NCBI RefSeq assembly: GCF_001936335.1
Contig: NZ_CP018888.1
Span: forward strand, 124,001-188,000
Length of the DNA: 64,000 nucleotides
Direction of reading: 5' to 3'
DNA from: Amylolactobacillus amylophilus DSM 20533 = JCM 1125
Lineage (GTDB): Bacteria; Bacillota; Bacilli; Lactobacillales; Lactobacillaceae
Positions 1 through 2,432 of the stretch are shown one piece after another (the first letter of the stretch is position 1; every line of letters starts with the position of its first letter). Under the pieces are notes generated by a model that was not told the DNA's origin, did not search any database, and was given only the letters and a program-made list of their open reading frames with translations. The translations under genes were made by a program, and so were the position numbers.

Positions 1-222
1 TGAGAGCTCACTTAGGAAGACGCCGGCAAATGGGGTATTAGATGAAATACCAATCTTATATGTTCCACCCTTTTTGATGTCCCGCTTGTTCGTGACAACC
101 TTTGGTAAAGCTGCTGTATTCACCGTTTTTTCATTCGTATTCTTGTTATTGTTACAAGCTGTTAACACGAAGGCTGCACCAGTAACAAAAGTCAGTAGTC
201 CGACAACTTTTGTTATTTTCAT
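1..222 (-). CDS. Oligopeptide-binding lipoprotein OppA-like, N-terminal part
   Basis: The first 74 residues of a secreted lipoprotein are visible; the rest lies beyond the window edge. A lysine-containing start, a hydrophobic segment and a lipobox ending LTAC (Cys about residue 23) show a type II signal peptide, followed by an Asn/Lys/Thr-rich linker and GGTYKIGISSNTPFAGVF, typical of the start of family 5 extracellular solute-binding proteins. An AGGGGGA ribosome binding site precedes the ATG. It lies downstream of two OppD/OppF-like ATPase genes on the same strand, separated by 146 bp, so it may have its own promoter. Peptide binding is inferred from the family; the ligand cannot be read. 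Confidence 0.8.
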   Translation of the reverse strand, partial: MKITKVVGLLTFVTGAAFVLTACNNNKNTNEKTVNTAALPKVVTNKRDIKKGGTYKIGISSNTPFAGVFLSELS

Positions 223-368
223 AAAAAATCCCCCTAAAATTTGCAATCTACTCCAATTAGAATTGTGCTCTTTTTACAAGATAACATAAACATGACAAAA
301 TTTATATAATTTCTCATAATTTTTATATTTAATCTCTTTTTATCAAGCTTTTTTTGATAAATAACCAA

Positions 369-1301
369 TTATTTATCTGGGATAGCGACAAAATGGGTGG
401 ATGATAATTGTTGCAGCGGCAGGTTGGCAGCTGAAAGATGTGCCCGCGTTACCTGAGTAGCGGTAAACTCACGTTCAAGCGCACAACGGTATTTTTTAAG
501 CTGCTCCCTTTGCGTCGGATCTGCCGGTGGATTAGCCGCTAACATCCGCCTCGTATAGATGTGGCTGGCGTGATTACGGATATCACCACTGGTACCCAGC
601 TCGACGAAACGCCCAGCATCTAGCATGGCAATCTGGCCACACATCAAAATGGCGAGGCTCAAATCATTAGTCAACATAAGCCAGCTCAACTGAGTCTCTC
701 GCTGCATCCCCTGCAAAATCCGCAATATCTGTCTCTGGGCAAAAGCGTCTAGTGACGTAATCAACCCGTCGATAATCAACAACTTAGGCGCCCTGGTTAA
801 AGCGCGCGCAATTAAAACCCGGCACAGTTCACTCTCGTTTAATTGCGCCAATGATTTGGCTGCGGTGTCACTAGACAGCTCAACCACAGACAGTAGTTCC
901 ATCACCCTTGCTTTTTCTGCTGTAACTGATAAATTGCAGAAATTGCGCAGCGGGGATGCAATATAATCTAACACTAACATGTGGCGCCCGACGAAATTAA
1001 ATTCGTCCTTTGAAATTAGCTGGATCGCTTTCTCATAGTCAGTCAGCCGCCGATTCGTCGCCTGGATCATATTTCTGCCTGCGTAGATAATTTGGCCAGA
1101 TGTGACCTGCTCTAATCCAACCAGTGCGCGCCCAATTGTCGACTTACCTGCACCACTCTTACCCACAATGGCGAGGGAACCCCTGGCGCAAATGGTAAAG
1201 TTAATACCATCAATCGCGCGTATCCGGCCGGTCTGTCGGCTAAAGATGCCAGATTTAATCGGATAATGAATCTTTAAATCTTCTACTCTTAATAGTGGCA
1301 A
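369..1301 (-). CDS. Degenerate OppF-like ABC ATPase
   Basis: A 310-residue relative of the oligopeptide transporter ATPase OppF. Walker A is intact (GKSGAGKST, residues 47-55), and the C-terminal oligopeptide-transporter region follows the ATPase fold. Other catalytic motifs are missing: the Q-loop position reads ISKD, the signature expected as SGGQRQR reads LNESELCR (154-161), Walker B ends IIDGL where ADEP is expected so the catalytic Glu is Gly, and the H-loop reads LTND with Asn for His. The start is TTG with GGGAGA upstream, overlapping the end of the OppD-like gene by 13 bp, so the two are translationally coupled. The frame is intact. It may be a non-hydrolysing subunit, or a gene decaying without frameshifts yet. 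Confidence 0.85.
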   Translation of the reverse strand: MPLLRVEDLKIHYPIKSGIFSRQTGRIRAIDGINFTICARGSLAIVGKSGAGKSTIGRALVGLEQVTSGQIIYAGRNMIQATNRRLTDYEKAIQLISKDEFNFVGRHMLVLDYIASPLRNFCNLSVTAEKARVMELLSVVELSSDTAAKSLAQLNESELCRVLIARALTRAPKLLIIDGLITSLDAFAQRQILRILQGMQRETQLSWLMLTNDLSLAILMCGQIAMLDAGRFVELGTSGDIRNHASHIYTRRMLAANPPADPTQREQLKKYRCALEREFTATQVTRAHLSAANLPLQQLSSTHFVAIPDK

Positions 1302-2095
1302 CAGCTTTCTCTCCCAACATTTAATAGTCTTCTGGTGTATGGATGAAGTGGATTGTGGAAAATCGTGGCAGCACTACCGTACTCAACAATCTGCCCCTCA
1401 TACATGATTGCCAATTGATCAGCGACTTCTGCAGCTACACCCATATCCTGGCTCAAAATAATCATCCCTGCGTGTTTCTCTGTACAATATTCCACTAAAA
1501 GATTGAGAATCTGTGCCTGGACGATTTTATCGAAACCGCGCGTTGGGTCGTCAGCAACAATCATTGTCGGATTACCCATCAGGGCCAGGGCCACCGCCAC
1601 ACGCTGTTGCAATTCTGCGCTCAGCTCAGCGGGGAAAAGTTTGAGCAATGAACGAGCTTCCGGCATGCCCACATACTTGAGAAACTGCGCGCTAAATTTA
1701 GCTAAACTTGCTTTATTAATACCGTTGTGTTGCAGCACCATGTTCAGTTCTGCGCCAATTCTCCTGAACGGGTTCAAGATTGTCAGTGGATTGTTCACAA
1801 TCACGCCCAGCTGATCCTGCAACCCATTATTCAAAGAGTCATGCCTGAACCTAAGGCGGTCACGACCATCTAATTTGATCTGTCCGGAGATAGCCGTGTT
1901 ATCCTTGTCATAAAGCCCCAGAATACTGCTGGCCAGCGTGCTTTTGCCGGTACCAGATTCACCGACAACCGCCAGAATTTCACCCCTGGCGAGTGAAAAA
2001 TTGATATCCGTCAAAACATTGTAGAACTTCTTACGAACCTGGTACGCCATATTAAGGTCTCTGACCTCTAATAATAGATTACTCTGCGTGCTCAA
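1289..2095 (-). CDS. Degenerate OppD-like ABC ATPase
   Basis: About 268 residues, shorter than usual OppD (about 330-350). I chose the TTG at 2095 because GAAGGA lies 6-7 bases before it; a TTG at 2131 in the same frame has no such site. Walker A is intact (GESGTGKST, residues 45-53) and the C-terminal HPYTRRLL region is typical of OppD. The Q-loop Gln is replaced (VNNP), the signature reads LSAELQQR (158-165) instead of SGGMRQR, Walker B reads VADDPT with Asp at the catalytic Glu, and the H-loop reads LSQD with Gln for His. It overlaps the OppF-like gene. No permease gene is in view; these could lie beyond the window. Confidence 0.85.
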   Translation of the reverse strand: MSTQSNLLLEVRDLNMAYQVRKKFYNVLTDINFSLARGEILAVVGESGTGKSTLASSILGLYDKDNTAISGQIKLDGRDRLRFRHDSLNNGLQDQLGVIVNNPLTILNPFRRIGAELNMVLQHNGINKASLAKFSAQFLKYVGMPEARSLLKLFPAELSAELQQRVAVALALMGNPTMIVADDPTRGFDKIVQAQILNLLVEYCTEKHAGMIILSQDMGVAAEVADQLAIMYEGQIVEYGSAATIFHNPLHPYTRRLLNVGRESCCHY

Positions 2096-2155: not shown

Positions 2156-2183
2156 AAAAAAAAGTCTGTCATCTCTGACAGAC
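2156..2183 (-). terminator. Intrinsic terminator after acpP
   Basis: A perfect 8-bp stem (2164-2171 with 2176-2183, loop of four) is followed on the minus strand by eight T residues. It separates acpP from the downstream OppD/OppF-like pair, so those need their own promoter or read-through. Confidence 0.85.
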
Positions 2184-2186
2184 CAC

Positions 2187-2432
2187 CTACTTAGCCATGT
2201 TAGTAAAAATATAATCAACTGCTTGGCCAACTGTTTGCAATCCTTCGGCATCCTCATCGGGAATCTCTCCCCCAAATGTGTCCTCAAGTTCAAGTACAAA
2301 CTCGACGAAATCAATTGAATCGGCATCTAAATCACGCTTAAAATTCATTTCAGGCGTCACCGTGTTAGCATCGACCTCGAAGTGATCAACGATTAGTGTG
2401 GTCACCTTGGCCATAATCTCTTCTTTAGTCAT
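2187..2432 (-). CDS. acpP: Acyl carrier protein
   Basis: An 81-residue acidic four-helix carrier protein for fatty-acid and phospholipid synthesis in the cytosol. The phosphopantetheine attachment site is the Ser in DADSIDF (about residue 39), followed by the usual acidic helix II (VEFVLELEDTFGGEIPDED). It is directly downstream of plsX on the same strand, the common Firmicutes pairing that links acyl-ACP to acyl-phosphate production. A strong terminator follows its stop. In many lactobacilli rnc and smc come next; here degenerate ABC genes follow instead. Confidence 0.95.
   Translation of the reverse strand: MTKEEIMAKVTTLIVDHFEVDANTVTPEMNFKRDLDADSIDFVEFVLELEDTFGGEIPDEDAEGLQTVGQAVDYIFTNMAK

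Follow-up and report, generated by a model that had tools for sequence, protein, structure and literature searches.

Do two neighbouring genes for oligopeptide-importer ATPases, which keep the P-loop and have lost most of the residues needed for catalysis, still specify proteins of use to the cell, or are they the decaying remnants of a transporter? The question is raised by the genes here called D* (OppD-derived) and F* (OppF-derived), which lie beside a gene for an OppA-type lipoprotein at the start of the window, i.e. the whole stretch of 64,000 nucleotides of Amylolactobacillus amylophilus DNA that was analysed. The genome consists of one contig of 1.61 Mb (99.95% completeness), in which the gene order is recG-plsX-acpP-D*-F*-oppA-rnc-smc-ftsY. 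The features of the locus and the changes in the conserved motifs are collected in Table 1.

Table 1. Features of the D*/F* locus, with positions in the window, and conserved ATPase motifs of the two gene products
Feature	Position	Strand	Remarks
Orphan OppA lipoprotein gene, 5' part	1..222	-	continues past window edge; SBP_bac_5; normally constrained
F*-to-OppA gap, 146 bp	223..368	-	oppB and oppC here in relatives; holds candidate OppA-gene promoter
F*, OppF-derived ABC ATPase gene	369..1301	-	TTG start, 310 aa; intact P-loop, loss of catalytic motifs
D* end/F* start overlap, 13 bp	1289..1301	-	fusion-like junction at missing OppD C-terminal domain
D*, OppD-derived ABC ATPase gene	1289..2095	-	268 aa; intact P-loop, loss of catalytic motifs, truncated C-terminal oligo_HPY region
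Intrinsic terminator 3' of acpP	2163..2184	-	9-bp stem, then T run
acpP	2187..2432	-	left boundary of oppDFBCA slot in relatives
Walker A			D* GESGTGKST, F* GKSGAGKST; intact GxxGxGKST in both
Q-loop			D* IFQDP to IVNNP; F* IFQDS to ISKDE
Signature			D* LSGGMRQR to LSAELQQR; F* FSGGQRQR to LNESELCR
Walker B			D* ADEP to ADDP; F* ADEP to IDGL
H-loop			D* ITHDL to LSQDM; F* ISHDL to LTNDL

The first-pass annotation had described two intact, overlapping frames, and this was confirmed: the overlap is 13 bp and neither gene contains a stop codon. D* starts with TTG, preceded by a GAGAAGGA Shine-Dalgarno sequence; an alternative reading from 2131 would give a product of 280 aa. The codon usage of both genes is typical for the window. 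The full OppA gene (locus L031 8471-10222) specifies 583 aa and has its own Shine-Dalgarno sequence. A search for permease genes beyond position 1, which the annotation had advised, was carried out, and neither oppB/oppC nor other permease genes were found at the locus; its order is acpP-D*-F*-OppA-rnc, both oppB and oppC having been deleted.

D* was aligned with 68 OppD and F* with 69 OppF sequences, the set being made up of orthologues from acpP-rnc-type loci in other Lactobacillaceae and the same-genome paralogues OppD1/D2 and OppF1/F2. All of these comparison sequences are canonical in the motifs, D* and F* are not, and no gap falls inside any motif. Since every relative is canonical at these positions, the loss in D* and F* is no motif shift, and misalignment as its source was ruled out. 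The Q-loop Gln, the LSGGxRQR signature, the catalytic (Walker B) Glu and the H-loop His are all four changed in both proteins. The earlier claim that every catalytic motif other than Walker A had gone therefore stands for these four but goes too far for Walker B and the D-loop, both of which retain their Asp. P-loop positions are kept at 8/8 in D* and 6/8 in F*, whose Walker A carries the substitutions E48K and S51A. D* is in addition about 65 residues shorter at the C-terminus than OppD, and only the first 23 of the 65 positions of the oligo_HPY region are left, below the cut-off.

Of 14 family-invariant positions concerned with hydrolysis or the dimer interface, three are kept in each protein, in agreement with the proposal that both sites of the pair are degenerate; the intact paralogues OppD1/D2 and OppF1/F2 keep 13-14 of them. 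D* is changed at 11/14 of these positions versus 29/82 other invariant positions (P=0.003), and F* at 11/14 versus 45/98 (P=0.04), P values which are descriptive as the categories were picked after the motifs had been seen. Binding without hydrolysis, as the annotation suggested, is what these residues imply, and D* and F* may bind nucleotide without turnover. Shifted motifs or stop-carrying alleles, which the annotation had considered signs of simple decay, were not encountered: the motifs are gap-free and the single allele at hand has no stops.

In terms of family, D* and F* belong to the ABC ATPases by fold, their closest sequence relatives are OppD and OppF, and they possess the GxxGxGK[ST] Walker A of these importer ATPases; the cognate OppB and OppC are missing from their operon. 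AlphaFold models gave a pLDDT of 89 for D* and for F*, and the nearest solved folds are chains C and D of E. coli OppBCDF, although such models draw on the alignment and do not amount to proof of folding. With the catalytic residues lost and the fold apparently preserved, as judged by prediction and by the pattern of substitutions, the two would rank as pseudo-ATPases.

The origin of the pair was traced by searching F* against 301 genomes of the family. Strong matches occurred in 122 of these, spread over 24 of the 40 genera; nearly all were full-length, 33-43% identical and present once per genome. The neighbourhoods of 39 relatives showed the order oppD-oppF-oppB-oppC-oppA, and in seven the operon lies exactly between acpP and rnc within the stretch examined. 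The best full-length matches of D* and F* are these acpP-rnc opp orthologues, which rank above the genome's own paralogues. By gene order and similarity, the locus is a reduced lactococcal-type oppDFBCA operon. It resembles the oppDFBCA operons of lactic acid bacteria, such as L. lactis Opp and OppLc of Lacticaseibacillus paracasei Shirota (PMC12634024), in its D-F-...-A order and the full-length alignment of F*, and that of many relatives in its place between acpP and rnc; unlike them, it is devoid of oppB, oppC, the catalytic residues, the OppD C-terminal domain and the oppD promoter.

In the acpP-oppD gap of seven relatives, a perfect TATAAT with a -35-like hexamer was found in six, while the seventh scored 8/12. 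Between the acpP terminator and D* no promoter better than 8/12 was detected, the best match overlapping the terminator, and the oppD promoter is thus missing at D*. Since a strong acpP terminator also precedes D*, expression of D* and F* may be very low. The candidate promoter of the OppA gene, TTGATA-16-AAAAAT (346-319, minus strand), is weak with 9/12 matches. In L. paracasei Shirota, oppDFBCA1, which is homologous to L. lactis Opp, has predicted promoters upstream of oppA1 and of the remaining four genes (PMC12634024); a candidate promoter of its own before OppA is a feature shared with OppLc.

The same slot has been reduced elsewhere. In five species, four from one genus and the fifth from a second (L150, L151, L152, L153, L154), it reads acpP-oppA-rnc without ATPase or permease genes, and tblastn revealed no oppD or oppF remnants upstream of OppA in these genomes. 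By their gene content, these relatives represent a parallel reduction to an orphan peptide-binding protein. Other relatives have no opp genes, a Dpp-order transporter or a metE/metF-like pair between acpP and rnc. Loss of the transporter, with OppA sometimes retained, is therefore recurrent.

The D*/F* pair itself was found in one genome only. No second genome with the pair was detected, a scan of contigs with D* returning distant ABC proteins only, and even samples of the family and the order contained no F relative closer than the matches of the family search; one congeneric genome was compared (G001), which is 65% complete and whose contig ends inside rnc. That the pair is common to no relative counts against proof of its persistence over time.

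Whether D* and F* are decaying was approached through their substitutions; at a protein identity of about 40%, saturation is to be expected at synonymous sites. Of the residues that are fully invariant, 61% are kept in D* and 53% in F*, whereas no single relative falls below 94%. In a neutral simulation, genes of relatives were mutated until the observed loss of invariant residues was reached (38-48% replaced); with the start taken from present-day relatives, not the true ancestor, and with indels omitted, about 5-7 stops were expected in D* and about 7-10 in F*, with means of 3.2-6.6 and 7.0-10.1 across settings, and none was seen in either. Changed invariant hydrophobic residues are still hydrophobic at 18/18 positions in D* and 21/23 in F* (39/41 in total), against an expected fraction of about 0.6, and the BLOSUM62 score of the changes is +0.35 and +0.07, respectively, compared with about -0.6 and -0.7 in the simulations. 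The simulation was repeated with the catalytic positions left out and with transition bias and GC varied (200 runs). Stop-free runs numbered 1-7 of 200 for D* and none for F*; the observed BLOSUM score was reached in no run for D* and 0-1 for F*, and the observed hydrophobic value in 2-5 and 0-2 runs. The changes in the intact paralogues OppD1/D2 and OppF1/F2 are similarly conservative, with the catalytic positions kept. Relative to the consensus, D* shows one single-residue deletion besides its C-terminal truncation, and F* lacks two residues at the C-terminal end and has no other indel.

The marks of an ordinary pseudogene (stops, frameshifts, loss of coding character) are accordingly not seen in these genes. 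Plain neutral decay is disfavoured by the simulations, in which several values of transition bias and GC were tried, and also when the catalytic sites are excluded. The absence of stops together with the conservative replacement of hydrophobic residues indicates that D* and F* were fold-constrained, catalytically dead ATPases, which were either repurposed or only recently released from selection. The simplest reading is that loss of catalysis was followed by a period in which they continued to exist as folded proteins.

Against a pair that is still maintained count the loss of the promoter and three properties of the sequences. Retention of consensus residues is down by a similar factor at invariant and variable columns, which suggests that specific constraint has gone; radical substitutions occur at structural positions of F* (G40R, P106R, G141E, P151L, P180L); and the GC content at codon position 2 of F* is raised to 0.424, the maximum for other long ORFs of the window being 0.401. 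With these four points, a late release is nearly as likely as a present function.

Our preferred reading, to which we give slightly less than an even chance, is that D* and F* are remnants of oppDFBCA that have lost catalysis and are maintained as a foldable pseudo-ATPase pair, next to an intact orphan OppA. The ancestor would have possessed a complete oppDFBCA importer between acpP and rnc, and the lineage would then have lost oppB and oppC, as synteny shows, together with the promoter of oppD and the C-terminal domain of its product. Once there was no channel left to be driven, both ATPases would have given up the residues that serve hydrolysis and formation of the ATP-sandwich dimer, the polypeptides being kept as full-length, foldable P-loop proteins, as suggested by the missing stops, the few indels and the conservative replacements. 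The likeliest working state would be a pair of pseudo-ATPases with nucleotide binding at most and no turnover, acting as a soluble scaffold or regulator. The evidence supports a "catalytically dead but fold-constrained" pair and no specific role, such as the regulatory or structural one beside OppA that the annotation had proposed. The more far-reaching proposal that the importer pair became a soluble, permease-free pseudo-ATPase heterodimer, both composite sites dead and the P-loops kept, under selection for a scaffold or sensor role, seems rather doubtful.

A slow or late decay, in which weak function or relaxed selection covered most of the divergence and a recent release, with loss of the promoter, left young stop-free pseudogenes, is a serious possibility that we judge somewhat short of even. 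It accords with the absent permeases and promoter, the C-terminal truncation of D*, the radical changes in F* and the five relatives in which oppD, oppF, oppB and oppC were lost wholly while OppA stays. The FastTree terminal branches of D* and F* (1.82 and 1.58 substitutions per site, medians 0.18 and 0.14) also point this way when set against 0.52 for OppA. A catalysis-free but maintained phase would nevertheless still be needed, since catalysis was lost and yet stops, indels and breaks in the core were avoided. Incorporation of D* and/or F* as non-hydrolysing subunits among the permeases or ATPases of an intact Opp-type system, with OppA, appears improbable. Two such systems exist, OppA is kept at the same spot, and asymmetric pairs with one dead site are common among exporters (PMC7756269); but here both partners are dead, the Q-loop residues responsible for coupling to the permease have gone, each intact system has a D and an F of its own, and OppA persists in relatives that have neither.

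That the frames stay open on account of their position, as a safeguard of oppA-rnc against polar effects, with no part played by a protein product, is very improbable. The conservative hydrophobic replacement would be left unexplained, OppA has a candidate promoter and a Shine-Dalgarno sequence of its own, and D and F were cleanly removed in five relatives, even though such an explanation would fit the way in which D* and F* overlap and the presence of housekeeping genes (rnc, smc, ftsY) downstream. An artefact of sequencing, assembly or annotation, or the import of a divergent subfamily, could be proposed from the occurrence in one genome and the closest matches being about 43% identical; it is scarcely credible given the single, nearly complete contig, the synteny of both neighbours, best full-length matches that are acpP-rnc opp orthologues and not the genome's own paralogues, and an even sample of the order that yielded nothing closer.

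The OppA protein keeps 27/28 invariant residues, as a working protein would. It has the characters of an orphan binding protein, i.e. an SBP_bac_5 lipoprotein under normal constraint with no adjacent permease genes, and its presence without ATPases at the same spot in five relatives shows that it needs no D*/F* pair. Two complete canonical Opp-type oligopeptide systems are specified elsewhere in the genome. All BPD-type permease matches of the genome lie outside the D*/F* locus, and the Opp-type permeases recognised in the genome family search are those of the two complete systems. OppA probably delivers peptides to one of these two systems. AliA and AliB of pneumococcus are orphan binding lipoproteins which serve Ami (PMC10191383), and DppA2 and DppA3 of L. 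paracasei have been proposed to serve DppLc (PMC12634024). Like these, OppA is an OppA-type lipoprotein with no permease genes beside it, in a genome that also specifies intact Opp-type systems; unlike them, it is left over from a complete operon that occupied this site, with two ATPase relics in front.

Degenerate ATP sites have usually been studied singly and in complete transporters, and a review of exporters treats one degenerate site per transporter (PMC7756269). As in TM287/288, CFTR and SUR (PMC7756269), the catalytic Glu, signature and H-loop are changed and Walker A is kept in D* and F*. Those proteins retain one canonical site out of the two composite ones, and their ATPase domains are joined to a transporter, whereas D*/F* has two dead sites and no membrane domain specified alongside. 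PhnK and PhnL on C-P lyase (PDB 7z15, 7z16), a match in the fold search, are likewise two ABC domains, and work without a membrane permease; unlike D*/F*, they form a functional complex whose structure has been solved and whose partner is known, and they are no Opp relic. No literature on such a double-dead ATPase pair was found, and D*/F* is an unusual one. If both sites are dead, there is no membrane partner and selection on the fold has continued, ATPase domains of importers can become bacterial pseudoenzymes. The acpP-rnc slot offers a natural series of importer reduction, from the complete operon through ATPase relics plus OppA and OppA alone to nothing, which shows the parts given up; the peptide-binding lipoprotein is among the last to be lost.

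Several further arrangements were observed. In L166, L167 and L171, from another genus, the slot holds a different peptide transporter with the order A-B-C-D-F, 54-77% identical to intact system 1 of A. amylophilus, so that peptide importers of two distinct kinds have occupied this slot. Two species (L169, L170) have the metE/metF-like pair between acpP and rnc, and genes in the slot appear to have turned over repeatedly. The whole oppDFBCA operon is present in tandem in L134 (genome G278), with three F copies spaced at about 6.7 kb. Two tandem oppA genes precede rnc in L117 (genome G037) and in further members of its genus, and extra oppA copies scattered through the genome amount to an expansion of the binding proteins.
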